Source: an uncultured Bacteroidota bacterium
GTDB lineage: Bacteria; Bacteroidota; Bacteroidia; Bacteroidales; CG2-30-32-10
Length of the DNA stretch: 33,311 bases
Direction: 5' to 3'
Assembly: GCA_903889915.1 (NCBI GenBank)
Contig: CAISZK010000056.1
Span: 1-33,311, forward strand
Shown here piece by piece: positions 150-33,311 of this stretch (within the stretch, counting starts at the first letter, position 1; each line of letters begins with the position of its first letter). Below the pieces are notes generated by a model, which saw only the letters and a program-made list of their open reading frames with translations, was not told where the DNA came from and ran no database searches. A program made the position numbers and the translations under genes.

Positions 150-3100
150 TAATTATTACAACCTTACATTATCCGGCTCAGGTACTGATTATTTTTATTT
201 TCAAGCAACAATATTAGGAACACTAACAATAAATAGTGGTGTACAGGCATCCCTATCATACAGTACTAATTCTTCAGCAGCTTACCTTTATCTTAGTGGA
301 GTTAATGAGCCTTCAGGAACATGGGGTTCCTCAAGTTCTACTGCTACCTATCAAAATAATACTTCTTTTGCTTCTACCAATGGTTATGTAACTGTGGGTA
401 TTGGATGTGGTGCAGCAGGCACATGGATAGGCGGTTCCAGCACCAACTTGAACAACCCTTCAAACTGGTGTGGAGGTACTTTACCTACTGTTATCGTTAC
501 AGCTACATTGGGAACAGCATTGGGTGGATACGGCACTTTGAAAGGGGCTTTTGATGCAATCAATGCAGGTACACACAAAGGAGACATTTTGGTTCAAATA
601 TTAGCCAGCACTGTTGAACCTGCAACATGCACACTCAATGCCAGTGGAAGCGGAAGTGCAAGTTATACCACAGTAAAAGTTTATCCAACGGTATCAGGAC
701 TATCAGTAACCGGCAATCTCAATGCCGCTCTAATAAATCTGAACGGAACAAGCAACGTTACTATTGACGGTAGAGTAAACCTCACAGGTTCTGCTACTGA
801 TCTTACTATTAAAAATACGAATGTAGGCAGCAGCGCGTCAACAGTTACAATGACAAATTCTGCTGCAAATAATGCAATCCAATATTGCAACATACAGGGT
901 TCTTCAACTAATACTTCCGGCGGCGTTATTTTCTTTTCAACATCTTTAACAGGAGTTGGTAACTCAAATAATATAATTGACCATTGCAACCTAACCAATG
1001 CAGGTAGCAGGCCATATAATATGATTTACTCATTAGGGTCAGCCACTTATTTGAACAGCAGCAATACCATTTCGAACAACAATATTTATAACTTTTTAAA
1101 TACCGGTGCAACCTCTTACGGAATTAACATTGGAGCATATTCAACTTCCTGGAGTATTACAGGGAATAGTTTTTATGAAAACACAACTTTCGCCGGAACC
1201 GGATATGGTATTGCTTACACTATCATTTCAATTAACAATACATCAGGCAATAACTTTGTTGTTTCTTCAAACTACATAGGTGGAAGTTCTGCCAACTGTG
1301 CTGGTTCAGCATGGAATAAAACTAACTCAAGTTCAAATGTGTTTAATGGCATATATCTGAATGCCGGCACTGGTAACAGTCTTCAGGGGAATACTATCAG
1401 TAACATGATATGGAGTAGTGCTCAGGGTTCAACATGGACCGGGATTAATATTGCAGGAGGTGATATTAATATAGGTACAACTGCAGGTAACACAATTGGC
1501 GCTTCAACCGGTACAGGTTCAATATCTGTAACTGATGGTGACCTGACTGCTAATGTTTATGTCATTTATCTTGCAAGTACCGGAACAATCAATTGTCAAA
1601 ACAATATAATTGGTTCGATTACCAGCGGACATGCAGATGGAAGCAAATCTAACAACCTTTATGGGATTTATAAAACTTCCGGAGCAGGGACAACAACTAT
1701 AAGTAACAATACCATAGGAAGCACCACAACAGCAAATAGCTTTCAGGCAAGTTCTACAAGTACAGGAAATCCTCAATATGTAATTGGCATCAACAGTGAC
1801 GGCACAGGAAACACAACTATTTCTGGTAATACAATATTGAACCTTACAAATGCACAGATTAATTATACCGGAGCAGGTTCTGTGAGTGGAATTCAAACAA
1901 CTGCCGGGTCAAATACAATAACAAATAACACTATTGGAAAAATTTCTATTGGAAATTGTTACTGGGGATCGGCAGGTGTTATTGTTGCTGATGGAATTGT
2001 GCAAAAATCAACTACTTCAGGTTCTACTCAGACCCTTACAGGGAATACAATTTATAACATTTCTAACACAAGTTTTACAGCAGTGGTAAGGGTTGATGGA
2101 ATATTCTTCCAGGGGCCATCATCAGGTACCAATGTAATAGCAGGAAATTTCATTCATGATCTTATAGTTTCTTCTTCCGAAACAAGAGCAGCAGTGGATG
2201 GCATTATGCTTTATGATGGTGCAACAACCGTTTATAACAATGTGATTAGTCTTGGAACAGGGATCTCACAGGGTGATGTGATCAACGGTATCTGGGACAA
2301 TGGCGGATCTGCCAGCAACAATATTTATTTCAATACTATTTACATTGGTGGAACAGTTTTTTCAGGAACTACCGGTAATACAGCAGCACTTTATAACGCA
2401 GCCACTGCCGCCAGAATCTACAAGAATAATATTCTTGATAACGCCCGTTCAGGTGGCTCTACCGGGAAAAATTATGCAATTTATTTAAGCGGAAATTCAG
2501 GGCTCACAATTGATTTCAATGATTATTATGTAAGTGGAACAAATGGTGTTTTAGGTTTCCTGGGATCTGACCAGTCAACAATGGTATTATTTGTAGCTGC
2601 AACCGGCCAGGATGTGAATAGTCTTATTTACAGCCCCAATTTAGTATCAGCCGGTAGCACTACTGCAACAGATTACAAACCTAACTCACAATTATTGTCT
2701 GGTGTTTCAATATCCGGAATAACCACGGATTATTCTGCATCAACCAGAGCAGCAACTCCAACAATGGGAGCCTTTGAAACTGTTTTAAATTTAAACATTG
2801 ACGTTTATAAAGCAGGAGTATTTCAGGCAACTTACTTAAAACTCAAAGATGTTTTTGATAAAATCAATAACGGAACACACACAGGTGCATTGGATGTAAG
2901 AATAAAAGCCAATCTCACGGAGAATACAACAGCTGTTCTTTATCAGAGTGGTTATACAAGCGGAGGTTACACATCAAATTATACTTCAGTCAACATTTAC
3001 CCTACTGTATCAGGACTTACGGTTACAGGTAACATGAATGCTCCGCTTATTGATTTGAATGGAGCCGATAATGTAACTATTGATGGAAGAGTGAATGCAA

Positions 3101-9100: not shown

Positions 9101-12100
9101 TAACAGGAGTATCAGCCGGAACCTGCAATATTATTTATACAGTCAACGGTTGTGGGGGAATAACCTCTGCACATAAGGTAGTGACTATTTCAGCCAATGC
9201 CGCTGTTGCTACCGTTACAGGAACCAACGGTCTTTGCCAGGGAGCAACGGCAACCTACAGTGTCACCGGAGTGATATTGGGCGGCGGAACCGGAGCATGG
9301 AGCAGCGACAATACCAACATTGCTACAGTTAATTCTGCTGGATTAGTAACCGGTGTTGCTGAAGGAAGCTGCAATATTATTTATTCAGTTACCGGAGGTT
9401 GTAATGGAATACCTTCCGCACAACATGCAATAACAATAACTCCGATTGCAGGTATCGCCTCTGTAACTGGCGCAAACCCGTTATGCATAGGCGCTGTGAA
9501 TGCAGTGTATTATTCAGCCAATGCTATTGAGCTGGGTGGTGGAACCGGTGTGTGGAGCAGCGACAATACCGATATTGCCACTGTCAATTCTTCCGGTTTG
9601 GTGACAGGTGTTAGTGACGGAACCTGTAATATTATTTATTCAATAACCGGTGGTTGTGGCAGTACACATGCACAACAGGCCTGCACGGTTAATCCAAATG
9701 CCTTCATCACCGGTGTAACAGGTACAACTCCTTTGTGCATCGGAGGTGCTGCAACCTATTCAACTTTCGGAGCCATTTATGGCGGCGGAACCGGTGCATG
9801 GAGTAGCACAAACACTGGTGTTGCAACGGTTAATTCTGCAGGAGTGGTAAACGCTGTTTCTGCCGGAACATGCTACATCGTTTATACAATTTACGGCTGT
9901 GGTGGAACACCTACAGCAAAACAAAAATTGACAGTTAATTCTAACGGAAGCGTTGCTTCTGTAACGGGAACAAGTCCTTTATGTGTTACAGGCATGGCAA
10001 CCTATACCGCCAATTCAGTTGTGCTGGGTGGCGGAACAGGAACATGGAGCAGCGATGCAACAGGTACAGCCACTGTCAGCTCTTCGGGAGTTGTAACAGG
10101 AGTATCTGCCGGAACATGTAATATCATTTATACAGTCAATGGTTGTGGCGGAATTGTCTCTGCACACCGCGCATTGACCATCACAGCCTCAGCCAGTGTA
10201 GCATCTGTCACAGGAACCAACGCTCTCTGTTTGGGAACAACAGCAACATACAGCGTAAGCGGTGTAATCTTAGGCGGCGGTAATGGCGCCTGGAGCTCCA
10301 GTAATACTGCTATTGCCACTGTTAATTCTTCCGGCCTTGTATCAGCAATTTCTGCAGGTACCAGCAATATCATCTATACCGTCAGCGGAGGATGCAACGG
10401 CATGCCTTCTTCTCAACAAAATTTAACTGTAAATGCGTTGCCGGTTGTTTCTTTTACAAGCCAGCCCGGTGACAATACATGTCTCAACCATGATGTAACC
10501 TATACAACGCAAACAGGTATGACAAATTATATCTGGAGTTTCCCCGGAATTTTAAATACGGACTATTCAATCACCTCGGGTGGAACAAGCGCCAGCAATT
10601 TTGCTACGCTGAGGTATCTCACAGAAGGTAGCAGAACGGTTTCTGTCAGATATACCAGCGCGTCAGGTTGCACTGCTGCTTCATCTGCAACTTCTATTCC
10701 TACACTGGTAACCCAGGATGTCTGGATTGGTGGTAGCAGTACCAACTGGAACGACGCAGCCAACTGGTGCAGTGGTATTCCTCATTCCAACACTGATGCA
10801 GTTATTCCAAAAGGTTCAACGATTCATATTATCACAGCACCCGGAACTGCTGCCGTATGCGGCAATCTGAAAATTGATTCAAGTTCCGTTGTCATCGTTG
10901 ATGCCGGAAGCGCCCTCACAGTTACAGGTACTATTACACTTCGCGACACTGCCTGTTTGATCCTTAAATCCAATCCAACCGATGCTTCAGTGCCAACCGG
11001 GTCATTAATTGATAATGGTTTTGCAGGAACAGGAACAGGAAAAGTTGAAAAAACATTATTCACCGGACGTTGGTGGTATATTGGTGCTCCGGTCATCCCT
11101 GTTACCGGTAAAACTGCTTTTGGTCCTTTATCATCAGTGTCAAGCACAGGAACACGACTTCTTTATTGGAATGAAACCACACATGCTTACGTGACCATGA
11201 CCAGTACTGATACTTTGAAAACCACTCACGGATATGCATTCAGAATTTATGGTCCTTCGCCTATCAATGCAAATTATGAGGGCTATTTTAACACCGGAAC
11301 CATCACTACACAGGTTTTGACATACACTGCAGGCGATCATCAGGGATTCAATCTGGTCAGCAATCCTTATCCTTCAGGAGTAAACTGGGGTTCGCAAACT
11401 TCACCTTCTTCAGGTATCACTCTGACAAATATTGAACCTACCATTCATTACCGTACCAACGGAACATTTGCCACATGGAATACAATGGGCGCCGGTACAG
11501 GTATCAATGGAGGACAACAAAACATACCATCCACACAGGGTTTCTGGGTGCGTGTAACTCCAGGGCATACTTCCGGAAGCATTCAATATACTAACAACGC
11601 AAGGGTACATACCACAACAGCGCTCTATAAAGTGACCGATCCACCCAATGTGTTCCGCATGGAGATTGCACGTAATACACTCGTTGATGAAACTGCTGTG
11701 ACTTTCTATGCAGGCGCGTTGACAACTTATGAGGCCTTTGACGGACAAAAAATGTTGTCGGATGATGCAACTTTCCCGCAACTGTTTTCTTACACCTCTG
11801 ACAATGTTCAGGCAGCCATCAACGGACAACCGTTGCTCGTTTCAGGTGTTGAACGCATAGTTCCCCTTGGATTTACCACATATTATTCAGGCACATTCAC
11901 ACTGACAGCTACAAATCTTACACAGTTTGATGCAGGAACTACGGTGTACCTTGAAGACGTTACACTGCATGTTACGCAGAATCTTTCTTCAAATAAAACC
12001 TATACCTTTACTTCGGGTACGGGTACTTTTGCAAGCCGTTTTAAATTGCATTTTGTGAAAAGCGGCAACCCATTGCCAATTCAACTATTGAGCTTCGATG

Positions 12101-19166: not shown

Positions 19167-20084
19167 TTAGTCATTCAATTTTTTCTTTAGTTTTGAAAAT
19201 GGCTTCAATAAAAAAGCTCCAAACTTATATGAGTATGAGTTAATGATACGTTCATAGTTTTCTTTGTTTCTCTGATTTTCAGCAACTATTTTGTCAACAG
19301 AGTCAATAATACCTTGCATTAATAATGTTTTCTGCTCAAAAAGTAAATTATTGACTTTTTCATCAAATTTTCCGATAAGCACATTTAATATATTTATCCA
19401 TTTTAATTGCATATCAATTAAGGATTTATGTCCCCACAATCCACTTTTTGTGACTCTATATACTCCCATTTCAACAGGAAAATATTTTATCTTTCCAAAT
19501 TGGGCATTTAGCAAATGTAGAACATAATCACCAACTGGCAAATTTTTGCCCCAACTAGGAAATTCATTTATTAAACCATTTCTAAAAACACAGGACGCCG
19601 TATATATATAATTGCCCAATGCAAGATCTTCTATTGTAGTTATTTCTTTCTGGTCGGGCGAATTTGATAAATGCTCTTTTCTGTCATCATCATAAATTAT
19701 TTTCATATTATGATGAGAAATAACAAAATCCTCATTTGCTTCTAAAAAATCCACTTGTTTTTGCAGTTTATATGGATCTGTCCAGTAATCATCGCCTTCA
19801 CAGAGAGCAATGTGTTTTCCACGGGCCATGGGAAAAAGTATATTGATCAATGTGTTTTGTTTTTGGAATTGGTTCTCTGTTTGATAAACACAACGAAATA
19901 AGCCAGGGTATTTTGCTTCATAGACTTTTACAATTTGTGCTGTATTATCAGTAGAAGCATCCTCGTGTACAAGAATTTCAAAAAGGAATGTTGTTTTTTG
20001 CATCACAAACCCATCTAAACATTGACGAATAAAATTTTCGTGATTGTATGTCATGCAACAAATACTTAGCAATGGAATTGACAT
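19167..20084 (-). CDS. family 2 glycosyltransferase
   Basis: 305 residues with a GT-A fold. It starts MSIPLLSICCMTYNHENFIR, the classic GT2 opening. HEDASTDNT (about 40-48) is the nucleotide-binding loop, and CEGDDYWTDPYKL (about 95-107) carries the DXD-like metal/nucleotide motif and the WTDP loop common in LPS and capsule transferases. The C-terminal ~90 residues are helical and basic (KLKKKLND at the end), suiting membrane association. It presumably adds one sugar of the glycan made by this operon; the donor cannot be inferred. It is the last gene of the operon and is separated from the propeller gene by a ~700-bp decayed stretch, so it may be translated from a separate transcript. Confidence 0.9.
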   Translation of the reverse strand: MSIPLLSICCMTYNHENFIRQCLDGFVMQKTTFLFEILVHEDASTDNTAQIVKVYEAKYPGLFRCVYQTENQFQKQNTLINILFPMARGKHIALCEGDDYWTDPYKLQKQVDFLEANEDFVISHHNMKIIYDDDRKEHLSNSPDQKEITTIEDLALGNYIYTASCVFRNGLINEFPSWGKNLPVGDYVLHLLNAQFGKIKYFPVEMGVYRVTKSGLWGHKSLIDMQLKWINILNVLIGKFDEKVNNLLFEQKTLLMQGIIDSVDKIVAENQRNKENYERIINSYSYKFGAFLLKPFSKLKKKLND

Positions 20085-20801: not shown

Positions 20802-21758
20802 TTAACTTTTTTCATTTAATTCTAATTCAGCATATCCAAATCCTGATTGTCCAAATCCATTTCCATTATAGAACATATACAATTTGTCTTTATAATGAAA
20901 CACATTGGGATAACAAATCATTTCAGAATCCCAACCTTCTTGTGACAAATCAATTCCAACATTTTTATCATTTCGCTTCCATTTAACACCATCGTTTGAG
21001 AAAGCAAATCCAATTCTATAGGAACTGTCTAATTGATTTCGGTAATTTGTATTTTTCCTGACAGAATACCACATATAATAAGTGCTATTAATTTTCATTA
21101 CTGAAGGTCTTACAATTCCTCCTTCATCTTCATTAAAATCAATACAAATTTGATTTTGGGGATTCCAATGAATTGCATCTCGTGATTCAGCATAGGCAAT
21201 TCTATAAAAAGGTTCAGCATCTCCATTTATTAATTCCCATTTTGTAAAAGAGGCATACCACATTTTATAAATTCCATCTTCAAAAATTATATATGGAGTC
21301 GCACATCCACAAGGGTCAAATATTGATCTGTCCATTATTGGTCCACTTGATTTTTTTTTAAAATTTTGACAAAATTTATCCCCAATTGCAAGACCAATTG
21401 CAATCCGGTATCTTGCAGTTGTTCCTATATTATATCCATTATAATAAAAGTAATATCGATTCTTTACTGGTAAAATGAATGATGAAGTCATTCCCATGTC
21501 ATCATGAGTTCCTAATTTTCCTAAAATTAATATCGGCTCAGGATTCACAAAAAATATTTCCTGTGGATTATCTGGGTTTACATCAATATAAGAAATTCGA
21601 CTTCTCTGATCAGAATCCCTACTAGTATAAAAAATTCTCAATGTATTTTTATTTATTAAGAAGGGTGTAGGCAAAGTAGAGTGTGTTTGAGACCATTCAA
21701 AAAATTTATTCCTTTCAAATATCTTCCCTTTCTTTTTCCAAATAAATTTCGTTTTCAT
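20802..21758 (-). CDS. GH43/GH32-like five-bladed beta-propeller protein
   Basis: 318 residues, with no signal peptide (MKTKFIWKKKGKIF), so cytoplasmic. The blade-like pattern repeats: FYTSRDSDQRSRISYIDV, then GTHDDMGMTSS (about 83-93), YYFYYNGYN, MWYASF, RIAYAESRDAIHW, YYMWYSVRKN, RIGFAFSNDGVKW and LYMFYNGNGFG. This matches the propeller superfamily of GH43/GH32/GH68 and of proteins often embedded in LPS or capsule clusters. Intracellular versions in biosynthetic loci are poorly understood and may trim or transfer rather than digest. A candidate acid is the DD in GTHDDMG; I cannot assign the full catalytic triad. It lies 27 nt after the methyltransferase gene within the operon. Confidence 0.72.
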   Translation of the reverse strand: MKTKFIWKKKGKIFERNKFFEWSQTHSTLPTPFLINKNTLRIFYTSRDSDQRSRISYIDVNPDNPQEIFFVNPEPILILGKLGTHDDMGMTSSFILPVKNRYYFYYNGYNIGTTARYRIAIGLAIGDKFCQNFKKKSSGPIMDRSIFDPCGCATPYIIFEDGIYKMWYASFTKWELINGDAEPFYRIAYAESRDAIHWNPQNQICIDFNEDEGGIVRPSVMKINSTYYMWYSVRKNTNYRNQLDSSYRIGFAFSNDGVKWKRNDKNVGIDLSQEGWDSEMICYPNVFHYKDKLYMFYNGNGFGQSGFGYAELELNEKS

Positions 21759-21785: not shown

Positions 21786-22796
21786 TTATTTTAAAATAAT
21801 TTCAGCTTCTCGTTTGATTAACATGTCTAACCATTGATGCATAGAAACACCTAATTTTTCGCGAGCTGCTTGTGCTAACCTCTTTGTTTCTGGCGTAACA
21901 CACTCTAAAACACCATAATATCTCGTCCAATGTGTTCCACCTCTTTCACTAGGAATTGGGATATGATAATTTGCAACAGGTTCTCCATTCCCAACAGTAA
22001 ATTCCAATATAAAGAAAGCTCCTAATAATATCCATTCAATTTTAATATCTCTAGCTTCAACCGGTATACAATCAAAAGGAATATTATATTGTAACAATGG
22101 GTTTGAATTCATCATGATTTTACCCATCTCAGTTTCTCTTAGCCATGGAGCCATGCTTTCATCACCAACAACAATCTTTCCTCCTGGCTTAACAACTCTA
22201 GTAATTTCTTTAAAAAATCTTTTTTGATCTGAAAATGTATTTACCCCACCAAAATGTAATGCTGCATCAAAAGTATTATCTGCAAAAGGTAAATACATTG
22301 CGCTAGCCACTGAGTATTCAATGGTTGTTGATTTTTCGTATTTACTTAACCTTTCAATTGCTTTTTTTAAGAATGCTAAAGATAGCTCTTGGACATAAAA
22401 ATGTGCAGATTTTCCAAGTCTTTTTGCAATATGCTCTGATCCTCTTCCATCTCCAGCACCCACTTCTAAAACACTTGAATTTTCCTTTAAATTCAATTTT
22501 TCAGTCATTTTTTCTCTCTCATCGAACTGAGATGAATAGAAGGTTTGGAAAGGAATGTCTGCATATTTATCATATTCATCAGCTAGTTTGTCGTAATTAG
22601 CTCTTGTAGTTTCGTCAATCTGAGCTAATTCTTTGGGATAAGTAAAATCAGGAATTCCATTATTTATTTTATAAATTTCTTTTTCATCATTACCTATAAA
22701 TTTACCTCTTATTATTTTATCCTGACTTTTATGAGTTATTTCTAATTTTAATTTATTTCTGTTAAAAGGACTCTTGTATAGATTATTTTTTTTCAT
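21786..22796 (-). CDS. SAM-dependent methyltransferase with Trm112-like N-terminus
   Basis: 336 residues. The first ~55 residues (LYKSPFNRNKLKLEI, then IIRGKFI, EIYKINNGIPDF) resemble the Trm112-like domain that precedes many polysaccharide-locus methyltransferases, but the zinc cysteines are absent. The Rossmann methyltransferase core follows: VLEVGAGDGRGSEHIAKRL (motif I, about 109-127), the acidic-loop region, FDAALHFGGVNTFSD (motif IV) and VVKPGGKIVVGDES. The C-terminal ~100 residues are specific to this subgroup. It probably methylates a sugar or a small carrier-bound substrate in the cytoplasm; the substrate is unknown. The start codon overlaps the stop of the GNAT gene as ATGA, showing translational coupling. 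Confidence 0.82.
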   Translation of the reverse strand: MKKNNLYKSPFNRNKLKLEITHKSQDKIIRGKFIGNDEKEIYKINNGIPDFTYPKELAQIDETTRANYDKLADEYDKYADIPFQTFYSSQFDEREKMTEKLNLKENSSVLEVGAGDGRGSEHIAKRLGKSAHFYVQELSLAFLKKAIERLSKYEKSTTIEYSVASAMYLPFADNTFDAALHFGGVNTFSDQKRFFKEITRVVKPGGKIVVGDESMAPWLRETEMGKIMMNSNPLLQYNIPFDCIPVEARDIKIEWILLGAFFILEFTVGNGEPVANYHIPIPSERGGTHWTRYYGVLECVTPETKRLAQAAREKLGVSMHQWLDMLIKREAEIILK

Positions 22797-23335
22797 TTTT
22801 TTACTTTAATTAATTCATACCAAATTAAATCGTACCATTTATTGTTTTTAAAAAAAGCATCATGCTCGTGAGCATATTGTGTAAAATTAAGTTTGTTACA
22901 AATTCTTTTCGATTCAATATTTTCTGCTGCATGTGCAATAATTATTTTATGCAGGTTTAGATTTTGAAACCCAAAATTAATAATGCTTTTGCTTGCTTCG
23001 GTGGCATATCCTTTACCCTGAAATTGAGAACCGATCCAATATGATAATTCAGCACGATTAATGATCCAGGTTCTAACTTTTCTTCTCAAATCTATTAATG
23101 AAACAAGTCCAATTATTTTGTAATTCAGGCAAACACACCAATGGTACCCATTGTCATTCTGCTGAGCTAGTATTAATCTTTGTACCACTTCCTTGGTAGT
23201 TTCAATGTTTGTATGAGGTTCCCATGTCAAAAATTGAATAAGTTTTATATCAGACATTAAAACAAATAGCTCATCCACATCTGATAATATTGGAGTGCGT
23301 AATAAAAGTCTCTCTGTATTTATGTTAAAATCCAT
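22793..23335 (-). CDS. GNAT-family N-acetyltransferase (RimJ/RimL-like)
   Basis: 180 residues. It starts MDFNINTERLLLRTPILSD, the standard opening of RimJ/RimL-type acetyltransferases. AELSYWIGSQFQGKGYATEA (about 95-114) contains the acetyl-CoA pyrophosphate loop QGKGYA, and AENIESKRICNKLNF (about 137-151) is the conserved late motif. Within this operon its amine substrate may be an amino sugar or an aminoacyl group rather than a ribosomal protein, which would give an N-acetylaminoacyl end group; this is inference. It overlaps the downstream methyltransferase gene by 4 nt and starts 7 nt after the SDR stop. Confidence 0.85.
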   Translation of the reverse strand: MDFNINTERLLLRTPILSDVDELFVLMSDIKLIQFLTWEPHTNIETTKEVVQRLILAQQNDNGYHWCVCLNYKIIGLVSLIDLRRKVRTWIINRAELSYWIGSQFQGKGYATEASKSIINFGFQNLNLHKIIIAHAAENIESKRICNKLNFTQYAHEHDAFFKNNKWYDLIWYELIKVKK

Positions 23336-23342: not shown

Positions 23343-24092
23343 TTAAATTGTTAACCCTCCGTTTACATTAATTACTTCAGCATTTATAAAGTCGTTCTCA
23401 ATAGCAAAAAGCACTGTTTTAACAACTTCTTCAATAGTTCCTGTACGTCTCAGAGGAGTTTTATCTATCCATTGCGATAACATTTTTTCTTCCAGTGCAT
23501 CATGAGCTCCTGCGGTATCCATAAAACCAGGAGCAATGGCTACTGATCTTATTCCAAACCGTCCAAGTTCTTTAGCCCAAACTTTTGTCATTGCTTCCAC
23601 TGCTGCTTTTGATGCTGCATAGGCTGTTTGGCCAATATTTCCTCTGGCTGATATGGAACTGATATTTAAAATAATACCCTTATTGCGGTTCTTAATCATT
23701 TTATCGGCTACCGATCGGGTCATAAAAAAAACAGAATTTTGATTTACCTCAATTACCCTATTCCATAATTCGATAGAGTGCCTGGAATCAGGGCGGCTCA
23801 TTATATTCACCAATGGAGCATTCCTCATGATTCCGGCATTGTTAATTAAAACTTCCAAGCCATTAAATTTAGAAAATATTTCATTAACTGTCATTTCCAC
23901 CTGAGCATTGTCTGCAACATCACAAACCCATGTTTGAATGCCGGGACATTCTGTTTTTATTATTTCTAACACATCCGGGTTAATGTCAATTGCTGCTATT
24001 TTTGCTCCCTGCTTTGCAAATTGCAGGGCCATTGCCTTTCCAAAACCCGAACCTGCACCAGTAATAATTATTCTGGCATCTCTAATATCCAT
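23343..24092 (-). CDS. short-chain dehydrogenase/reductase (FabG-like)
   Basis: 249 residues, classical SDR. The glycine-rich NAD(P) loop is TGAGSGFG (11-18); Asp36 at the end of strand 2 suggests NAD(H) preference. NNAG is at 84-87, the catalytic Ser at about 145 (LNISSIS), and Tyr158-xxx-Lys162 in AYAASK. The C-terminal INVNGG is typical. It is directly adjacent to the acyl carrier protein gene (1-nt gap), so its substrate may be a carrier-bound acyl chain; alternatively it reduces a keto sugar or oxidises a hydroxy acid for the pathway. All residues needed for activity are present. There is no sign of truncation. Confidence 0.9.
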   Translation of the reverse strand: MDIRDARIIITGAGSGFGKAMALQFAKQGAKIAAIDINPDVLEIIKTECPGIQTWVCDVADNAQVEMTVNEIFSKFNGLEVLINNAGIMRNAPLVNIMSRPDSRHSIELWNRVIEVNQNSVFFMTRSVADKMIKNRNKGIILNISSISARGNIGQTAYAASKAAVEAMTKVWAKELGRFGIRSVAIAPGFMDTAGAHDALEEKMLSQWIDKTPLRRTGTIEEVVKTVLFAIENDFINAEVINVNGGLTI

Positions 24093-24093: not shown

Positions 24094-24318
24094 TCAGGAA
24101 ATGTATTTTTTAACTGTTTCTCTTATCGCATCGAAAGTTATCATCTCAGCTATATCATCACCTGATAACTGTATGTTGAATTCATTTTCAATATTAACAA
24201 TTAAGTCCATGTGAGTAATGGAATCCCATTTCGCCACCTGATTCATTCCAAGATTTTTCAGGGATTCTTCTGCTGATAATTTAAAAGTTTTGCTAATTAT
24301 ATCATTAATTTTTTCCAT
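24094..24318 (-). CDS. discrete acyl/peptidyl carrier protein
   Basis: 74 residues from the ATG at 24318 (MEKINDIISKTFKLSAEES). A longer open frame upstream (to 24573) is a shadow of the acyltransferase gene. The KWDSITHMDLIVNIENEF segment carries the phosphopantetheine attachment serine (Ser33, DSxxHMDL) and the acidic recognition helix, followed by IAEMITFDAIRETVKKYI. Size and acidity match stand-alone ACP/PCP/DltC proteins. The protein needs activation by a phosphopantetheinyl transferase, which is not in the window. With the adenylation enzyme two genes upstream, it forms a likely two-part system that loads an amino or carboxylic acid as a thioester. It begins 14 nt after the acyltransferase stop. 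Confidence 0.9.
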   Translation of the reverse strand: MEKINDIISKTFKLSAEESLKNLGMNQVAKWDSITHMDLIVNIENEFNIQLSGDDIAEMITFDAIRETVKKYIS

Positions 24319-24332
24319 AATAAAAATTTTAT

Positions 24333-25010
24333 TTAAGTTCTGAAACAAGATGACATGCGTATAAATTGGTCGGAATTCAAGCGATGCGGTTCTGTGTTCG
24401 GAGCGACAAGCACTGTACCTGCGGGAATTGATTTGCATGCGATAGTACCTGCACCAAGCATACACTTTTCGCCAATATTGACTTCGTGTCCCACTACCGC
24501 ACCCAAACCTATAAACGAATTTAAGCCCATTCTTACACTGCCGCCAATCAGACAGCCGCCCGTGAGCCAGCAATTATCTTCAATAACCGCATGATGCCCA
24601 ATCATGGCGCCGCCCCAAACAAATACATTATTTCCAAATTTTACACAGGGTTGAATTAAGGCTCCGTCCATAACAATACTGTTTTCGCCCAGGCTAAAAT
24701 TTCCTTTTACTGATGGACTTTGATAATTTGCAAACACGTATCCATTCTCCTTAAAGAAATCTATTTTAATTCTGCGTAATTGATTCATTCCCTGATAACC
24801 AACAGCAACAAAAACTTGGTAGTCAGAAGATGGATATTGCGCTGCACATTCAGATAATTTAACAACCGGTTTATTATTAAATTGCTTAGACGATTTGAAT
24901 ACATCATCTACAGCATAAGCGCAAATTTCAAATTCACTATCTCTTTCAAAAAAATAGGAAATGCATTCTGAAATTTTTCCCGTTCCGAACATTAATAATT
25001 TTTTCTTCAT
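24333..25010 (-). CDS. NeuD/PglD-type left-handed beta-helix sugar acyltransferase
   Basis: 225 residues. The N-terminal ~80 residues form the PglD/NeuD Rossmann-like nucleotide-sugar domain (MKKKLLMFGTGKISE ... YQVFVAVGYQGMNQLRR). Residues about 95-215 are hexapeptide repeats of a left-handed beta-helix: NSIVMDGALIQPCVKFGNNV, then FVWGGAMIGHHAVIEDNCWL, then IGGSVRMGLNSFIGLGAVVG, then ACKSIPAGTVLVAPN. The GHHAVIED histidines are the likely catalytic base region. Homologues acetylate, or use other acyl-CoA or acyl-ACP donors on, the C4 amine of nucleotide-activated 4-amino-6-deoxy sugars. It partners logically with the VioA-like aminotransferase. It overlaps the adenylation gene by 4 nt. Confidence 0.87.
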   Translation of the reverse strand: MKKKLLMFGTGKISECISYFFERDSEFEICAYAVDDVFKSSKQFNNKPVVKLSECAAQYPSSDYQVFVAVGYQGMNQLRRIKIDFFKENGYVFANYQSPSVKGNFSLGENSIVMDGALIQPCVKFGNNVFVWGGAMIGHHAVIEDNCWLTGGCLIGGSVRMGLNSFIGLGAVVGHEVNIGEKCMLGAGTIACKSIPAGTVLVAPNTEPHRLNSDQFIRMSSCFRT

Positions 25011-26563
25011 TTACTATACTCCTCTTTTAATTTTAATCTGTCAATTTTACCGTTCATATTTTTAGGCAAATATTCCAAAAATACATATTCGTCAGGAATC
25101 ATATATGAAGGCAATAAGTTTAATAAATCCATAGTGATCTTATTTTCATCATTAACATTTGAACTTACAAAGGTAACAATTTTACCAATATCCTGTTTTG
25201 ATTTTACATACACTACAGCATTTTCCTCAATATATTTTAAAGAACCAATCGCGTGTTCAATCTCTTCCAACTCGATACGATAACCCATTCTTTTGATCTG
25301 GTTATCTTTTCTTCCACAAAAATATAATAATTTATCCACATTATTTATACTTACCAGGTCGCCACTTTTATAAATAATTTCTTTATGATCTGTAATAAAA
25401 GGATGTTGCACAAAAACCTCTGCTGTTTGTTCAAGGCTATTTACATATCCTAAACCAACATTTGGTCCTGTAATAAATAATTCACCTATCTCACCACTAT
25501 CAGTGATTTTTCCAAATTCATCAAGTATCAGAAATCCAAAACCGGGTAACATTTCACCAAGCGGTAGCAATTCATCCTTCTGCATATCTGATGCCGTAAC
25601 TTCATATGACGAACAGATACAAGTACATTCTGTCGGGCCATAAACATTAATAAATTTGATTCGATTACCCCACAACTCCCACAAATTCCTCAATTGATTT
25701 TTCGGGAATCCTTCACCACCAAATGATACAATTCTTAAGCATAAAAGGTCATTTTTATTTAAAGCTCTTAATTTTAGTGCGTAAACCAGCATGGAAGGAA
25801 CGCTAAACCATATTGTTGGTTTAATAATATTTAGTATGTCAATCAATTTACGAGGATTCCTTGCCAGGCTTTCAGTCACCGGAACTAATGAAGCCCCACT
25901 AAATAATGATGCATAAAAATCAAATACGGAATTGTCGAAGTGCATTGGATTAATGTTTGTGAAAACATCATCTATGCTTGTATTATAAGCAATTTTTGTC
26001 CAGGCAATAAACCTTAAAATATTTTCATGAGGAATTACAACACCTTTTGGAAAACCAGTTGATCCCGAAGTAAACATTATATATGCAGGAGCAATTCCAG
26101 GGACATTAAAATATGTATCAGACAATGAACTTTTGTGAATATTCAAATTGCTTATAAATTCATTGGAGTTAAAATCAACAATTTTGTTTTCCGGAACACT
26201 ACAGGATTTCAAATTTTCAGTATATGTGCTCTCCGAAAAACACAATACAGGCTTGCATATTGCAATCATTTTTTTCAAGCGTTCTAAAGGGCTGTTATAA
26301 TCAAGATTAGAATAAACCGCACCGATTTTTAAACAAGCAATCATCAAGGCATAAGCCTCAACTGTTTTATTATTGAATATTGCAATTACCTCACCTTGTT
26401 TCAATCCAATCTTTAATAAATAATTTGCAATTTTACATGAAAGCTCATTTAGCTGTCCATATGAAATACAACTGCCGTTCAATAATTTCAAAGCAGGTTT
26501 TTCCTGGTTGGCAGTGGCAATTTCAACAAAAAGGCATCCAAGATTATGTACAGATTTATTCAT
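25007..26563 (-). CDS. stand-alone amino-acid adenylation enzyme (DltA/NRPS A-domain-like)
   Basis: 518 residues, a complete ANL-family enzyme: A3 MFTSGSTGFPKG (163-174), A4 HFDNSVFDFYASL with Asp210, A5 NVYGPTECT (307-314), A6 GELFITGP, A7 YKSGDLV, A8 RKDNQIKRMGYRIELEEIE, and A10 NGKIDRLKL with catalytic Lys506. The FDxS aspartate equals the residue that holds the alpha-amino group in NRPS A domains and DltA, so an amino acid substrate is favoured over a fatty acid. No condensation or carrier domain is fused; the ACP is encoded separately three genes on. Its presumed reaction is amino acid + ATP, then an aminoacyl thioester on that ACP. It overlaps the WbqC gene by 8 nt and the acyltransferase gene by 4 nt, so expression is coupled. 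Confidence 0.9.
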   Translation of the reverse strand: MNKSVHNLGCLFVEIATANQEKPALKLLNGSCISYGQLNELSCKIANYLLKIGLKQGEVIAIFNNKTVEAYALMIACLKIGAVYSNLDYNSPLERLKKMIAICKPVLCFSESTYTENLKSCSVPENKIVDFNSNEFISNLNIHKSSLSDTYFNVPGIAPAYIMFTSGSTGFPKGVVIPHENILRFIAWTKIAYNTSIDDVFTNINPMHFDNSVFDFYASLFSGASLVPVTESLARNPRKLIDILNIIKPTIWFSVPSMLVYALKLRALNKNDLLCLRIVSFGGEGFPKNQLRNLWELWGNRIKFINVYGPTECTCICSSYEVTASDMQKDELLPLGEMLPGFGFLILDEFGKITDSGEIGELFITGPNVGLGYVNSLEQTAEVFVQHPFITDHKEIIYKSGDLVSINNVDKLLYFCGRKDNQIKRMGYRIELEEIEHAIGSLKYIEENAVVYVKSKQDIGKIVTFVSSNVNDENKITMDLLNLLPSYMIPDEYVFLEYLPKNMNGKIDRLKLKEEYSK

Positions 26564-27263
26564 TGTCCACTAAAGAATATTGATTTAACAAACAATTAAT
26601 CTCCTCTATTGAATTATGCATCATCACATCAATTATTGACAACCAGGGCATAAATAAACCACCGCCTTGATTATATTCTATATTATTGCTTTTTAAAAAA
26701 AACAATTGTATGTTTTTTGCCATGAAATCTTTTTTATTATAAAGTTCAATTCCACCGATAGGATTAATATATTCGGTAGCATTCTCCCTTACGGAAATTT
26801 CAATTATTTTTTCCTTTCCCTTTAACTGTTTAGTATTATAACTGCTGGAAGTTTTGATAATGTGGGTACCAATACGTAAATATTCACAAAGTTTTGATAT
26901 GCTATAAAAAAGGTATTCTGATAAATGATTGTTTTCAAAACGGATAATATTTTCAACAAGTGGAAATACTTTAACAAACATCGGTGACTTTCTATAAGCT
27001 GTGCTAATAGTTTTCAATAATTTATCTTTCCACTTTGTATCAATGACGAGATTAATCTCATTTATGAGTTTATTTTGTGAAATTTTTTCAAGAGGGATTG
27101 TGAATAGATATTCTTTTTGATTAAACAAAATTCTGTTTCTATTGATCCATCCCTTTTTAATAAAATTCACATCATCCAATATCACAAATTTATCCACAGC
27201 ATTGATCAATTGGAAATAACCGATATATGGTAGAAAATATGGTTGCATGATGGCTAGTTTCAT
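26556..27263 (-). CDS. WbqC-family protein
   Basis: 235 residues. The opening MKLAIMQPYFLPYIGYFQLI and DKFVILDDVNFIKKGWINRN are diagnostic of the WbqC family, and the closing FMPWLSIIDVMMHNSIEEI is equally typical. Members occur in O-antigen and other glycan loci, often beside sugar aminotransferases; I know of no firmly established reaction for the family as a whole. Here it is sandwiched between the aminotransferase and the adenylation enzyme, with an 8-nt overlap with the latter. I infer it may transfer the carrier-bound (amino)acyl group to the sugar amine, but nothing in the sequence proves this. No signal peptide or TM segment; cytoplasmic. Confidence 0.88.
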   Translation of the reverse strand: MKLAIMQPYFLPYIGYFQLINAVDKFVILDDVNFIKKGWINRNRILFNQKEYLFTIPLEKISQNKLINEINLVIDTKWKDKLLKTISTAYRKSPMFVKVFPLVENIIRFENNHLSEYLFYSISKLCEYLRIGTHIIKTSSSYNTKQLKGKEKIIEISVRENATEYINPIGGIELYNKKDFMAKNIQLFFLKSNNIEYNQGGGLFMPWLSIIDVMMHNSIEEINCLLNQYSLVDNE

Positions 27264-27270: not shown

Positions 27271-28374
27271 TTATGCCTTAATGATTTTGCAAACTTTCTT
27301 TACAGATGATATTTCAAGGTCTGGATAAATAGGTAGGCAAAGCACTTTTTCTGCAATATCATTGGCAATTTTCAGATTCTCCTTATTAGCAGTTTCCAAC
27401 CCTGCGTAAGGTGCATAATTGCTAATAAGAGGATAAAAATACCGACGCGTAAAAATTCCCTGCGCTTTAAGTTTCTCATAAACCTCGTCTCTGGATTTCA
27501 TTAACTTATGGCAATCAATTAAAACAGGGAAATAAGAAAAATTATAATCAATATTTTCAGCTATTTTCATGCAAGTAATGCCAGGTGTAGCATATAACTC
27601 CTCTTGGTAAAATTCTGAAATCAGTTTTCGTTTTTCAATGGACCTGTTAATATACTTAAGCTGTAGCAAACCCATAGCAGCCTGCACTTCATTCATTTTG
27701 GCATTAATACCTGGAGCTACAACAGTAACTTCATCGTGAAAGCCAAAATTCTTTAAATCATCAATATGCTGTTTCATTTCAGCATCATGGCATATAATTG
27801 CACCTCCTTCAAAGGTATTAAAAACCTTAGTTGCATGAAAGCTTAATATGGAAAGGTCACCCCAATTACATATTGAAATGTCATCTTTTTTTACTCCAAA
27901 AGCATGTGCAGCGTCATAAATCAGTTTAAGTTTATTGGTTTCCGCAATTTTTTTAATTTTTTCATGATCACATGGATTTCCATAAACATGTACGGGTAGA
28001 ATAGCAGTAGTAGCGGGAGTTATTAAAGCTTCAATTTTCTCAGGATCAATTGTAAATTGATTATTTTCAATATCACAAAAGACCGGTTTTATCCCATTCC
28101 AGTGTAAACAATGAGTAGAAGCTACAAAACTAAAGGGAGTGGTAATTACTTCGCCCGTAATTTTTAATGCCTGAAGAGCTGTTATTAAAGCAAGAGTGCC
28201 ATTAGCAAATAATGAAATATAATTTACTCCTAGGTATTCGCAAAGTTTTTTTTCTAATTGCTGGTGAAATTGTCCATTATTGGTAAGAATATGACTTTCC
28301 CATATTTTTTCAAGGTATGGGATAAATTCCTCAAGCGGAGGCAGAGCGGGTTGTGTAACGTATATGGTTTTCAT
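27271..28374 (-). CDS. vioA: VioA-like DegT/DnrJ/EryC1/StrS sugar aminotransferase
   Basis: 367 residues, full length for the PLP-dependent DegT family. It starts KTIYVTQPALPPLEEFIPYL; LTNNGQFHQQLE, LFANGTLALITALQAL and ITTPFSFVASTHCLHWNGI are close to dTDP-4-amino-4,6-dideoxyglucose transaminases (VioA). Asp154 in YDAAHAFG holds the PLP pyridine nitrogen, and Lys183 in SFHATKVFNTFEGGA forms the Schiff base. It likely converts a dTDP- or UDP-4-keto-6-deoxy sugar to the 4-amino sugar using glutamate. The 4-keto precursor enzymes (RmlA/RmlB type) are not in the window. It overlaps the upstream methyltransferase gene as ATGA (28371-28374). The symbol is by resemblance; exact sugar and nucleotide are unproven. 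Confidence 0.85.
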   Translation of the reverse strand: MKTIYVTQPALPPLEEFIPYLEKIWESHILTNNGQFHQQLEKKLCEYLGVNYISLFANGTLALITALQALKITGEVITTPFSFVASTHCLHWNGIKPVFCDIENNQFTIDPEKIEALITPATTAILPVHVYGNPCDHEKIKKIAETNKLKLIYDAAHAFGVKKDDISICNWGDLSILSFHATKVFNTFEGGAIICHDAEMKQHIDDLKNFGFHDEVTVVAPGINAKMNEVQAAMGLLQLKYINRSIEKRKLISEFYQEELYATPGITCMKIAENIDYNFSYFPVLIDCHKLMKSRDEVYEKLKAQGIFTRRYFYPLISNYAPYAGLETANKENLKIANDIAEKVLCLPIYPDLEISSVKKVCKIIKA

Positions 28375-29198
28375 TTATTTACAATATACAGAACTGAACG
28401 ATGATGAATTCCACATTTATTAAAGGTCTCCTCCCCAAAATAATTGATGTCGAATTCACTAATTTTAAATCCTGCATTATTTAATTTATTTTTAAATCCG
28501 GGCTTTGAATACATACGAACATGATCGTTTTGCCCATAATACTTCCATCTTAAATCGTCAGTGTTATAATCATCACATTCTAAATCTTCTTCTAATAATA
28601 AGGCTAATGGAACCATAATAATTGCAAATCCATCTGGTTTCAAAATTCTATATATTTCAGAAATAGCTTTTCTGTCCTCCACAACATGCTCAAGTACATG
28701 CGAGCATAAAACGATATCATAACTGCCATCTTTATACATAGGCATACATGTAATATCAACTTTGTCATCAGCATTTTCCATTTTTAAATCTGTTGATCTG
28801 TAATTTACTTTTGGAAAACTTTTTATCCAATTCGATAAATTCTGATCAGGTGCAATATCTAAAAAAGTAACTTCTTTTGTTTGTTTTTCAAATACCGCTT
28901 TCAAATAGAGTGCGTATAATCTATTTCTGTCAGAACTATAACAGTTAGAACAATAATATTTTAAATAATGAAACGTTTCTGAATGAAAAAAAGAGTGTAC
29001 ATTTTGAACTTTATCTAATTTTTCAAAATAAAAATCTTGTAATCTTTCAAAATGAGTAATATTTTCATTACAAACAGGGCAATAAAAATTCTTTTCAGTC
29101 ACATTCAAAAGATTTCCATTTTGTTGTGTGTTTAAGATTTGTTTTTTTATATAATCTTTAATATATGTTGGAATTAATTTTTTAATGAAATTTGTCAT
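28371..29198 (-). CDS. zinc-ribbon SAM-dependent methyltransferase, first gene of the glycan operon
   Basis: 275 residues. A basic amphipathic N-terminus (FIKKLIPTYIKDYIKKQI) precedes two cysteine pairs, CPVC (40-43) and CSNC (83-86), that likely bind zinc, followed by SSDRNRLYALYL, the usual pattern in this methyltransferase group. The Rossmann core has a degenerate motif I, FLDIAPDQN (112-120), then RSTDLKM, CSHVLEHVVEDRKA (165-178) and ILKPDGFAIIMVPL. The end is marked by GIHHRSVLYIV. It probably methylates a glycan or nucleotide sugar. As the first gene downstream of the palindromic promoter candidate at 29350-29373, it is translationally coupled to the aminotransferase. Confidence 0.85.
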   Translation of the reverse strand: MTNFIKKLIPTYIKDYIKKQILNTQQNGNLLNVTEKNFYCPVCNENITHFERLQDFYFEKLDKVQNVHSFFHSETFHYLKYYCSNCYSSDRNRLYALYLKAVFEKQTKEVTFLDIAPDQNLSNWIKSFPKVNYRSTDLKMENADDKVDITCMPMYKDGSYDIVLCSHVLEHVVEDRKAISEIYRILKPDGFAIIMVPLALLLEEDLECDDYNTDDLRWKYYGQNDHVRMYSKPGFKNKLNNAGFKISEFDINYFGEETFNKCGIHHRSVLYIVNK

Positions 29199-29530: not shown

Positions 29531-32500
29531 CTAAAATTTCACAAACCTCAGAATTTTAAAATTATCTCTAAAGGTAATTCGATAAGTATAAACGCCGAGA
29601 TTCAACAATGATACATCTAGGGTAAGTTTATTTAGTCCTTCGACACCCATATCAGAATACACTTTTTTGATATAAGCTCCCTTTGCGTCATAAAGATCAA
29701 TTTGTACCTGATCAGCAAATGGTAGAATAAAATCAATGTGAACAAGATCGTTTACAGGAGTTGGATAAGGATCAAATGCCACAAAATGGCTTGTCAGTGC
29801 AAGGCATTGCTCATTGTTAGCCGGATTATCATCAGGGTTATAGTTCACAATTTCAGCTTCAACACAAATGTAATCTGTAGCCTGCTCCTGTGATATCTCA
29901 TATTTTGCATTAAATGTATAAGTGATGAGTTGTCCTGTAAGAAGAGGGTTCGTAAAATTAGACCATGTTTCTTTGAAAACAGTACCACCTGCAGTTTTTG
30001 CATAAATGTCAATTGCATAAACGCTTCGGGTGCCAAGGTTTGTTATATCAGCTGTGAGAGTAACGAAATTTCCCTGCGTTGTTGAACTAACATTGGTAAC
30101 AGCAATATCGGCTCTTGTTGGTATCACAAATATTTGTCTCGAACTGGAATCCTTGCAGCCATATTGATTTTGCACAACAAGAGAAACATTAAAGGTGTCA
30201 TTATACTGGTAGGTGTAACACGGGTCTTCCAGAGAACTGATCTCTCCGTTGCCAAAATTCCACAAATAATTAACTGCGCTGTCGGAATTATTAGTAAAAC
30301 AAACCTGAAGAGGAGCTATTCCATAGAAATTATCGGGTAAGAAATTGGAAACCGGAACAGGGAAAATATTTGCCATGGTATGTACTGAATCTTTGCAACC
30401 TGCACTGGATACTACTGTCAGAGAAACCGGAATACTTTCAACACCGTTGCTATGGAAAGTCATTGTGGGTGAAGTTAAAGTTGAGGTACCATAACTCCCA
30501 AAATTCCATAAATGTGAAACTATTGAATCCGGAGAATGCACTGTGCTGCTGTCATTAAAGGTAACCGGAGTATTTGAACAAATATCCCCAATAGTCAGTA
30601 TGGCATTAGGATATCCGTGAATAGTTACACTATCTGTCGCGGAAGAAACACATCCATTGATTGCTTTAACAGTTAGTGTTACTGGATAAGTACCGGCGCC
30701 ATTGATAAATATCGTACTTGGATTTTCCTGGTTGCTTGTTTGCCCATCGCCAAAATTCCAATTCCATAAATAAATTGAAGCTTGAGGTTGGGTATGAGAT
30801 GTGTCGCTGAAATATACTGGAGAACCATCACAAACATTATTGAACGAAAATCCTACGATGGGGGCGAAACGGACATGAACATTTTCATTAATAGAATTCA
30901 TACATCCATGATTGGAAATAACAACAAGGTGAACATTATAATTACCAACTGAATCAAATGTGTGTATCGGATTTTGGACCGAATCAATTTGTGGATTATT
31001 CGGATCATTAATTGTCCATTGCCAGATAGAATCATTTCCAAAAATACAGGTGGACTGATCATGAAATTGCAATGGAACATTTGTACAAGCTAGAAAAGGA
31101 GTGAATACAACCTGAGGTTTAGAATATAAATATACGGGTTCGGTAATAGTTTTAAAACACCCCTGATTAGTAACAACAGTAAGCGAAGTATTGTAGATAC
31201 CCGGAGTATTATAAAGATGGGTTGGGTTAGCATTTAAACTATCAAGATGCGATGTTGAAGTGTCACCAAAATTCCACAGAAAGTGATCCACACTGGCAAG
31301 AGGAGGAATTACCCATTGATTGGTAAAATGCGTTGGGTCCTGTTCACAAGCTGAGGAGGCAATGAATGAAACATAAGGATCGGTTCCATGAGTAATAATT
31401 TCTGATGTAAAATTGGCGGTACATCCCATATTATCAGTTATTGTTAAATGAAGTGAATCTCCTGTTGACAAATTATGTGTGATAGTATAATGAGTACTAT
31501 CTGAAACCAATGTTCCATCAGACCAAAGATAATTTACAGTTAAATTAGCACCGATAGCTAAGGAAATTGTATCCCCAATACATTTACTTAAAGAATTACC
31601 ACCAATAGAAACTTTTAATTTAAAACTGTCGGCAGAAACAACAATGTTTTTTGTAACAGAACAACCTAAATAGTCAGTAACAATAAGCCTTACAGTATCA
31701 GGAGCAATAGTAGAGAAAGAACTTGCTGTTGATGTAAGATTTTGCCAGTTGAAAGCGTAGGGAGAACTAAGACCGGTATTCAATGTAACACTCGAACCAA
31801 AGCAACCAATAGTATCATGAGCATGGATAATGGGTTTGTTTACAAAAATACTATCCACTGAAGAATAACCGCAACCTGTAGTCGCAGTCACACTGTAATA
31901 ACCACCTGTAGAAACCGAGATGGTTTGAGTAGTATCACCGTTTGACCAAATGAAATGTGAAAACCTGCTTCCTGCATCCAAAGTAACCGGGCATAAATTA
32001 TTTGAATAAATATCAGGTCCAAGGTTAACGGGTGCCACATACTGGCTCGGAAAATATTTTTGAAGAAGATAATTCTGAGTATTTATTAATTGCGTTGGTG
32101 TTAAGGAAGCATTACAAATAATGAGTTCTGCAATATCAACTGATGAGAAACCAATTGGAGGTAATGAACCACTTGCTGGCAATGAAGCGCCAAGCAGAAA
32201 ATTGAAAGTGGAGTTAATATTGTAAGATGGATAAATTGCCTTTTCTCCAAGAAGACTGCAACTATCATTCAGATACATTTTCGCATCTCCCCTTACAATG
32301 CGCGAATATAAAAGCTCATACATTCCATTTGTTCTTGGAACATCCATCTGATAATGAATATTGCTCTGATCATCATAATAGAAGTGAACCTGTTGCCCCT
32401 GATAATATAAACCATACCGGTTGGGTATAGCACCGGCTGCTGATTTGGTGAAATAAATAGCTACATCATTGCTGGCTTTTCCAACAATAAAAGCATAAAA

Positions 32501-33310
32501 ATCATTAGTGTTGATGTCCAGAATATCTCCGCCATCCATATAATTATGGGCGTTGGCGTCAAAACGAACCACAGGTAAATTATTCAGCGCATTATTAATC
32601 AACAAAGGTTGTTTGGTTACGTCATTCTGAGCAACATTGTTAGGATTTCCACTATGGGTTGCATCTTTCCACTGAACAACATTAGCTCCGTTCATTATTA
32701 AGGTTGATGGATCATCAGCGCGCAACCAGAGATTAATACCCGGAAGCTGAGATGGTGAGAAACGTTTGAACTCAAAAACATTTGAATAAGTAGTGTCACC
32801 ACAAATGCCAATTGCCAATACTCTCCAGTAAAAATCATTCAATGTGTCAATAGTTGTCTGGTAAGTATTCCCATAAATATCCGGAACGGATAAAAGAATA
32901 TCGCCAAAACCGGGGTCTGTTGAATATTGCCAAATGTAGGAAAATGCATTTGTGGATGAATTCCAGGCAAAATTTATAATACTATCGTACGTTGAGAAAT
33001 TGTTTATCGGAGAATAGAGTGTAAAATTTCCCGGAGGTGCGGCAGAACTAACAACGGTTATCGGATGGGTAATGGAATTCTGACAGCCAATATTGGTTTG
33101 AATTGTGAGTATGACATTATAATTACCAGCAGCAAGGTAAGTATGTGTCGCATTTTGTGTGGTAGCATGGGTAGTTCCATCTCCAAAATTCCAGTCCCAT
33201 GAATTAATTGTTCCTTCATTACTTAAACTTTGATCCGTAAATGTAAGTGGATGGCCAATACAGGCGGAATCTACAATGAAAGATGCTATAGGATTTTGAG
33301 GAATATGAAT
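29531..33310 (-). CDS. large T9SS surface protein with FN3-, LamG-, Ig-, PKD- and CARDB-like domains (5' end beyond window)
   Basis: 1259 codons, open through the right edge; the TTG at 32842 is internal, not the start, because the frame continues upstream as DIYGNTYQTTIDT and further. Domains from the edge inward: a PKD domain (SWDWNFGDGTT near 33180), an FN3-like segment (WQYSTDPGFGD), a LamG/ConA-like domain of about 235 residues from GINLWLRADDPS (about 32740), three Ig-like repeats with FIWSNGDTTQTI- and YLWSDGT-type cores, then five PKD domains with LWNFGDTSTS, WNWNFGDGQTS or LWNFGNGEISS cores (about 31390-30130), a CARDB-like region (TADITNLGTRSVYAIDIYAK), and a T9SS type A sorting domain from FDPYPTPVNDLVHIDF to ILRFVKF. 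The usual YPNP is YPTP here. It is probably secreted through the outer membrane and cell-surface attached. No catalytic domain seen. Confidence 0.87.
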   Translation of the reverse strand: MHIPQNPIASFIVDSACIGHPLTFTDQSLSNEGTINSWDWNFGDGTTHATTQNATHTYLAAGNYNVILTIQTNIGCQNSITHPITVVSSAAPPGNFTLYSPINNFSTYDSIINFAWNSSTNAFSYIWQYSTDPGFGDILLSVPDIYGNTYQTTIDTLNDFYWRVLAIGICGDTTYSNVFEFKRFSPSQLPGINLWLRADDPSTLIMNGANVVQWKDATHSGNPNNVAQNDVTKQPLLINNALNNLPVVRFDANAHNYMDGGDILDINTNDFYAFIVGKASNDVAIYFTKSAAGAIPNRYGLYYQGQQVHFYYDDQSNIHYQMDVPRTNGMYELLYSRIVRGDAKMYLNDSCSLLGEKAIYPSYNINSTFNFLLGASLPASGSLPPIGFSSVDIAELIICNASLTPTQLINTQNYLLQKYFPSQYVAPVNLGPDIYSNNLCPVTLDAGSRFSHFIWSNGDTTQTISVSTGGYYSVTATTGCGYSSVDSIFVNKPIIHAHDTIGCFGSSVTLNTGLSSPYAFNWQNLTSTASSFSTIAPDTVRLIVTDYLGCSVTKNIVVSADSFKLKVSIGGNSLSKCIGDTISLAIGANLTVNYLWSDGTLVSDSTHYTITHNLSTGDSLHLTITDNMGCTANFTSEIITHGTDPYVSFIASSACEQDPTHFTNQWVIPPLASVDHFLWNFGDTSTSHLDSLNANPTHLYNTPGIYNTSLTVVTNQGCFKTITEPVYLYSKPQVVFTPFLACTNVPLQFHDQSTCIFGNDSIWQWTINDPNNPQIDSVQNPIHTFDSVGNYNVHLVVISNHGCMNSINENVHVRFAPIVGFSFNNVCDGSPVYFSDTSHTQPQASIYLWNWNFGDGQTSNQENPSTIFINGAGTYPVTLTVKAINGCVSSATDSVTIHGYPNAILTIGDICSNTPVTFNDSSTVHSPDSIVSHLWNFGSYGTSTLTSPTMTFHSNGVESIPVSLTVVSSAGCKDSVHTMANIFPVPVSNFLPDNFYGIAPLQVCFTNNSDSAVNYLWNFGNGEISSLEDPCYTYQYNDTFNVSLVVQNQYGCKDSSSRQIFVIPTRADIAVTNVSSTTQGNFVTLTADITNLGTRSVYAIDIYAKTAGGTVFKETWSNFTNPLLTGQLITYTFNAKYEISQEQATDYICVEAEIVNYNPDDNPANNEQCLALTSHFVAFDPYPTPVNDLVHIDFILPFADQVQIDLYDAKGAYIKKVYSDMGVEGLNKLTLDVSLLNLGVYTYRITFRDNFKILRFVKF

Positions 33311-33311
33311 A

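Follow-up and report, generated by a model that had tools for sequence, protein, structure and literature searches.

A recurrent gene cassette proposed to build a capped aminoacyl amino sugar for bacterial surface glycans

A set of genes encoding a DegT-family aminotransferase, a WbqC family protein, a stand-alone adenylation (A) protein, a PglD-like acyltransferase, a carrier protein (ACP) and a short-chain dehydrogenase (SDR), followed by an exchangeable N-acylating enzyme, was found in a Bacteroidota genome, and recurred in the same order in loci of other bacteria. With somewhat more confidence than doubt, we regard it as a cassette that moves horizontally and whose product is an N-(capped aminoacyl)-4-amino-4,6-dideoxyhexose destined for a surface glycan. 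Many bacterial surface sugars bear amino acids, the activation and attachment of which are poorly known. The cassette is a compact and conserved set that would link a named amino sugar pathway with the activation of an amino acid by the A protein and ACP. Additionally, it suggests a testable role for WbqC, which to our knowledge is a widespread family of no known function, present in about half of the sampled Bacteroidota genomes and also encoded in the O-antigen cluster of E. coli O121. In the literature searched, we found no direct report of this gene set, no description of a conserved transferable cassette that combines an NRPS-type A domain, WbqC and a VioB-like enzyme, and no earlier statement of WbqC as an aminoacyl ligase. 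The principle of passing an amino acid from a carrier to a surface sugar amine is, however, already proposed for SerRS-like carrier ligases, in a note added in proof to PMC2922099.

The gene run and its surroundings

The window, i.e., the whole analysed stretch of 33,311 nucleotides, corresponds to contig C56 in full; the draft genome, of a member of Bacteroidota, amounts to 5.55 Mb. Ten tightly packed genes occupy its minus strand from 29198 to 20802, the A, acyltransferase and ACP genes all included, and a glycosyltransferase gene lies 717 bp past this run (Table 1). The G+C content of the stretch with the gene run is 31.6%, as compared to 40.0% in the left flank and 37.4% in the right flank, which fits a foreign origin. 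No close homologue of the methyltransferase that opens the run was found at the same place in the compared loci of relatives. In several relatives, the glycosyltransferase gene adjoins the GH130-like gene.

Table 1. Genes of the run in the window and the glycosyltransferase gene beyond it
Product	Position	Strand	Length (aa)	Basis	Remark
SAM methyltransferase	28371..29198	minus	275	PF13489	opens the run; not among the conserved cassette genes
DegT/DnrJ-family sugar aminotransferase	27271..28374	minus	367	PF01041	
WbqC family protein	26556..27263	minus	235	PF08889, AF2 model	
Stand-alone NRPS-type A protein	25007..26563	minus	518	TIGR01733, LgrA alignment	code kept in relatives
NeuD/PglD/VioB-type left-handed beta-helix N-acyltransferase (PglD-like)	24333..25010	minus	225	TIGR03570, VioB 7txp	
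Stand-alone carrier protein (ACP)	24094..24318	minus	74	Pfam PP-binding	phosphopantetheine site WDSITHMDL
FabG-like SDR	23343..24092	minus	249	PF13561/PF00106	Ser-Tyr-Lys motif
GNAT N-acetyltransferase	22793..23335	minus	180	PF13302	another GNAT or a formyltransferase instead in other cassettes
SAM methyltransferase	21786..22796	minus	336	PF08241	also in cassettes L010, L011, L016, L017
GH130-like beta-propeller protein	20802..21758	minus	318	PF04041, 34 bits	conserved
Family 2 glycosyltransferase	19167..20084	minus	305	GT2 call from sequence features	resembles proteins in the corresponding place of relatives

GH130-like proteins also occur in some clusters that have DegT and WbqC genes and no A module. 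Besides the window, such propeller proteins were seen at L116:11008-11937 and L117:8761-10697, and they are kept even in clusters lacking the A protein and ACP, with two copies in Rhizobium. The whole region is flanked by two very large repetitive proteins (394-12633 and 29531-33311), the C-terminal ends of which resemble type IX secretion cargo; the one at 29531-33311 continues past the contig end.

Conservation of the cassette and its exchangeable capping gene

A single scan of bacterial genomes yielded nine relatives at 43-64% identity, distributed over Bacteroidota, Nitrospirota, Fibrobacterota and Gammaproteobacteria (Halochromatium). The order DegT-WbqC-A-PglD-ACP-SDR was found in seven of them (one of these contigs ends within the DegT gene), and the remaining two, which are cut within the A gene, agree with this order as far as they are visible. 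A tenth relative, L071, was the single one found among 394 other Bacteroidota genomes, and has its A gene split into two frames, either genuinely or through a draft error. The recurrence of the same gene order in ten other loci of four phyla is more than chance would be expected to give, and the rare and patchy distribution of the cassette fits its horizontal transfer.

Behind the SDR gene, sometimes one gene further downstream, a gene encoding a GNAT of one of two families or a formyltransferase was present in all ten loci in which this place is visible. It was a PF13302 GNAT in the window and in L009, L011, L012 and L017, a PF12746 GNAT in L010 and L013, and a formyltransferase in L016, L071 and, more weakly, L014. 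The occurrence of different N-acylating families in the same slot points to the capping of a free amine. Moreover, two N-acyl-transfer enzymes, one PglD-type and the other a GNAT or formyltransferase, were encoded in all ten loci showing both, which implies two amines: that introduced by DegT, and another, for which the alpha-amine of an amino acid is the simplest candidate. This exchangeable capping slot is the strongest contextual argument for an amino acid in the pathway.

The adenylation protein

The A protein reached 329.4 bits with the amino acid adenylation domain model TIGR01733, passing its curated cut-off of 317.4. As proposed in the original prediction, it has the ANL motifs, namely YIMFTSGSTGFPKG, HFDNSVFDFY, NVYGPTEC, YKSGDL, GRKDNQIKRMGYRIE and NGKIDR, and Lys506, the equivalent of K517, lies within the last of these. 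Asp210, which had been named as the FDxS aspartate, is exactly that: it occupies the D235 position, aligns with the FDxS aspartate of both A domains of LgrA, and is conserved without exception in the alignment of ten A proteins. The solved sequences closest to the A protein were those of LgrA, PltF, DltA and CytC1. Its AF2 model (mean pLDDT 83.4), the least certain part of which is around Asp210 (block pLDDT 61), matched amino-acid-activating A domains, e.g., Txo2, THR1 and GrsA. By motif alignment, the pocket consists of D210, N211, F214, S254, S280, G282, V307, C315, I316 and K506, i.e., DNFSSGVCIK, and this code, as DNFS[S/T]GVCIK, is nearly constant across the ten A proteins, suggesting that they probably have one common substrate. 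It fits no substrate code known to us. More distant A proteins (L020-L037) were in other gene contexts and gave no clue to the substrate. In a separate group of other Bacteroidota loci (L060, L061, L064 and L068), an A protein with a separate carrier lies inside another conserved block, flanked by a conserved protein of 340 aa, possibly a luciferase-like monooxygenase, and a protein of 373-386 aa, possibly GNAT-like.

In the DltA/DltC systems of D-alanine activation, a stand-alone A protein charges a separate small carrier with an amino acid. The same split arrangement in the cassette, and the presence of DltA among the nearest models of the A protein, could speak for a DltA/DltC-like system exporting an amino acid to esterify a cell envelope polymer. 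We consider this very improbable. With the two DltA models, the A protein reached only 293.8 and 310.9 bits, far under the respective cut-offs of 559.85 and 476, and a DltA-type identity was rejected on these scores and on gene context. DltB and DltD were not recognised in the cassettes, which are tied to amino sugar genes instead, and the genome has a separate dlt-like locus on contig C208 (L055:1-3506), encoding the end of a DltD, an MBOAT DltB-like protein and a DltA-like protein of 504 aa with the pocket code DLYSLCTVAK. The existence of this separate DltA-like protein is some evidence that the A protein of the cassette serves something else.

An NRPS-type A domain with an ACP, in a genome with NRPS modules elsewhere (condensation domains on contigs C82 and C86), would also be compatible with a pathway to a small nonribosomal peptide or natural product unrelated to surface glycans. 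However, neither a condensation domain nor a thioesterase was recognised in the cassettes, and the A and ACP genes are in the constant company of DegT, PglD-like, GH130-like and glycosyltransferase-like genes, which makes such a pathway highly unlikely. The original prediction had taken the lack of DltB, DltD and condensation domains nearby to mean that the acceptor is most simply the amino sugar. Indeed, none of the three was recognised in the cluster of the window, but the search elsewhere in the genome, which had been suggested as a check, found both a dlt-like locus and NRPS condensation domains, and thus the argument by exclusion is weaker than stated. The choice of an amino acid as the substrate and an amino sugar as the acceptor is nevertheless the best-supported reading, on the grounds of Asp210, the amino-acid type of the A protein, a DesI/VioA-like aminotransferase, a VioB-like N-acyltransferase and the exchangeable GNAT or formyltransferase. 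The aminoacyl ligase may be WbqC itself.

The carrier, the acyltransferase and the dehydrogenase

The carrier is, exactly as predicted, a separate protein of 74 residues with an intact DSITHMDL site; its true reading frame is 24094-24318, and the mechanically called frame 24094-24573 is a longer in-frame read-through. It scored 21.4 bits with Pfam PP-binding (cut-off 20.8), and all nine aligned carriers share the WDS and HM letters of its site. The enzyme and carrier genes that had been described as a split pair are both real, but they are not adjacent: the gene of the PglD-like acyltransferase between them had been missed, and so had that of WbqC. The ACP resembles GmACP3 (2lml), a specialised LPS carrier reportedly encoded near LPS genes, in being a stand-alone ACP with a WDS..HM site, whereas the sequence match between the two is only weak (E 0.0015).

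The PglD-like protein scored 142.1 bits with TIGR03570, under the cut-off of 160.8, as a close yet divergent relative. Among sugar N-acyltransferases, it is nearest to VioB (7txp, E 5.5e-11), the VLSH of which, with the presumed catalytic His, aligns with its IGHH, and it has a conserved C-terminal tail, HRLN..QF...S.CFR. Its top PDB matches were to LpxD, which uses acyl-ACP; as they extend through hexapeptide repeats only, we do not claim carrier use by the PglD-like protein from them.

The nearest solved structure to the SDR was 4nbu, and the SDR gene directly follows the ACP gene in all cassettes compared. The presence of a FabG-like SDR beside an ACP also fits 3-oxo/3-hydroxyacyl chemistry. 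Accordingly, the A protein could load a hydroxy or keto acid, such as 3-oxobutyrate, on the ACP, the SDR would reduce it, and the PglD-like enzyme would transfer the hydroxyacyl group to the sugar amine, giving a product like 3-hydroxybutyryl-Qui4N; 3-hydroxybutyryl groups are known on Qui4N (PMC3210612). We consider this unlikely, as the A family is of the amino-acid-adenylating type with an invariant Asp at the D235 position, a ketoacyl synthase was not recognised in the cassettes, and the extra GNAT or formyltransferase would be left without an amine to cap.

WbqC and the E. coli O121 cluster

WbqC scored 243.1 bits with PF08889 (gathering cut-off 21.3). In searches with its sequence, nothing was found in the PDB, and hhalign gave no meaningful alignment with twelve BshC sequences; Foldseek alone gave no significant match of its AF2 model (pLDDT 89.7). 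By VIA re-alignment, however, the model matched BshC 4wbd over 221 of 235 residues with a Z of 13.9 and an rmsd of 3.2, and class I LysRS 1irx with a Z of 12.2, the next row having 7.8. This supports a class I aminoacyl-tRNA synthetase/BshC-like (HUP) fold of aminoacyl-ligase type, and makes WbqC a candidate aminoacyl ligase on the strength of the model. BshC, the bacillithiol synthase, joins an amino acid, cysteine, to an amino sugar. It differs from WbqC in having no detectable sequence relation to it, and WbqC is less than half of its length. No BshC was found in the genome of the window, and it was present in the other 60 of the 61 genomes of the phylum sample.

The O121 cluster of E. coli RM8352 encodes rfbB, rfbA, DegT, WbqC and a GNAT. 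The last three are in the same order as in the window, the DegT proteins being 55% and the WbqC proteins 44% identical, and the likeness would extend to an N-capped aminoacyl amino sugar: N-acetylglycyl appears in the list of Qui4N substituents in the review PMC3210612, with the E. coli O121 structure as the reference. Since the three genes match in number the three steps of amination, glycylation and acetylation, WbqC is a candidate glycyl ligase in O121. In contrast to the window, the O121 cluster is without the A protein, PglD-like protein, ACP and SDR between WbqC and GNAT, and its GNAT belongs to another subfamily. In appearance, the cassette of the window is the O121 triad plus an A-PglD-ACP-SDR module inserted between WbqC and GNAT.

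The predicted fold of WbqC, and the position of its gene directly before the A gene in the cassettes, would also suit another division of labour, in which aminoacyl-S-ACP is the donor, WbqC forms the amide, and the PglD-like protein acetylates another position. This is rather doubtful, as E. coli O121, Rhizobium and others have the DegT-WbqC-GNAT set and no ACP with it, so that a carrier-bound donor is not necessary for WbqC. Conversely, as this set seems sufficient in O121 without the A protein and ACP, what these two contribute may not be the first amino acid. We therefore also entertain, tentatively and with less belief than disbelief, that WbqC is a class I aminoacyl-tRNA synthetase/BshC-like ligase for nucleotide-linked amino sugars, and that the A-PglD-ACP-SDR module extends its product to a capped dipeptide-like chain, partly by NRPS-type logic.

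The proposed pathway

The best NCBIfam match of the DegT protein was DesI (TIGR04427, 307 bits, under the cut-off of 650 bits), and its best solved relative was 2po3. Its product is probably dTDP-4-amino-4,6-dideoxyglucose (Qui4N), judging from the relatives of DegT, from the relation of the acyltransferase to VioB, and from the presence of RmlB elsewhere in the genome.

For the capped aminoacyl sugar, we infer each reaction and substrate as follows. DegT would aminate a 4-keto-6-deoxy nucleotide sugar, probably dTDP-linked and supplied by RmlA/RmlB encoded elsewhere, to a viosamine-type (Qui4N) sugar. The A protein would adenylate an amino acid and charge the free-standing ACP with it. The aminoacyl group would then pass to the sugar amine through the PglD/VioB-like acyltransferase, the BshC-like WbqC, or each in turn, in which last case the product would be a dipeptidyl sugar. 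Thus, the inserted module might either replace WbqC's own amino acid supply or add a second acyl unit. The FabG-like SDR would act on the carrier-bound acyl group or on the sugar, the free alpha-amine would be capped by the GNAT, or by a formyltransferase in other genomes, and a methyltransferase and a glycosyltransferase would complete and attach the product.

A similar acceptor has been suggested for the SerRS-like enzymes that ligate amino acids to carrier proteins (Mocibob et al. 2010; see the discussion in PMC2922099). Like the cassette, they combine an aminoacyl-ACP with a neighbouring redox enzyme, glycosidase and LPS genes, a surface sugar amine being the proposed acceptor; they differ in that the activation is by a homologue of class II aminoacyl-tRNA synthetases, while the cassette has an NRPS-type A domain and a different candidate ligase.

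Distribution of WbqC

Of 80 Bacteroidota genomes sampled, 41 encode WbqC. In the WbqC tree, the proteins of the cassettes did not form a single clade, and were placed inside one supported set with the DegT-linked WbqC proteins of E. coli O121, Rhizobium, Hymenobacter and Bernardetia. Neighbouring DegT and WbqC genes, often with a GNAT gene, recurred in other genomes without the A protein or ACP. The genome of the window encodes a second, divergent WbqC on the minus strand of contig C195 (L058:4546-5166), alone beside a gene for a LepB-like signal peptidase. Similar divergent copies are present in many Bacteroidota and cluster apart from the DegT-linked WbqC proteins, suggesting that they have another role.
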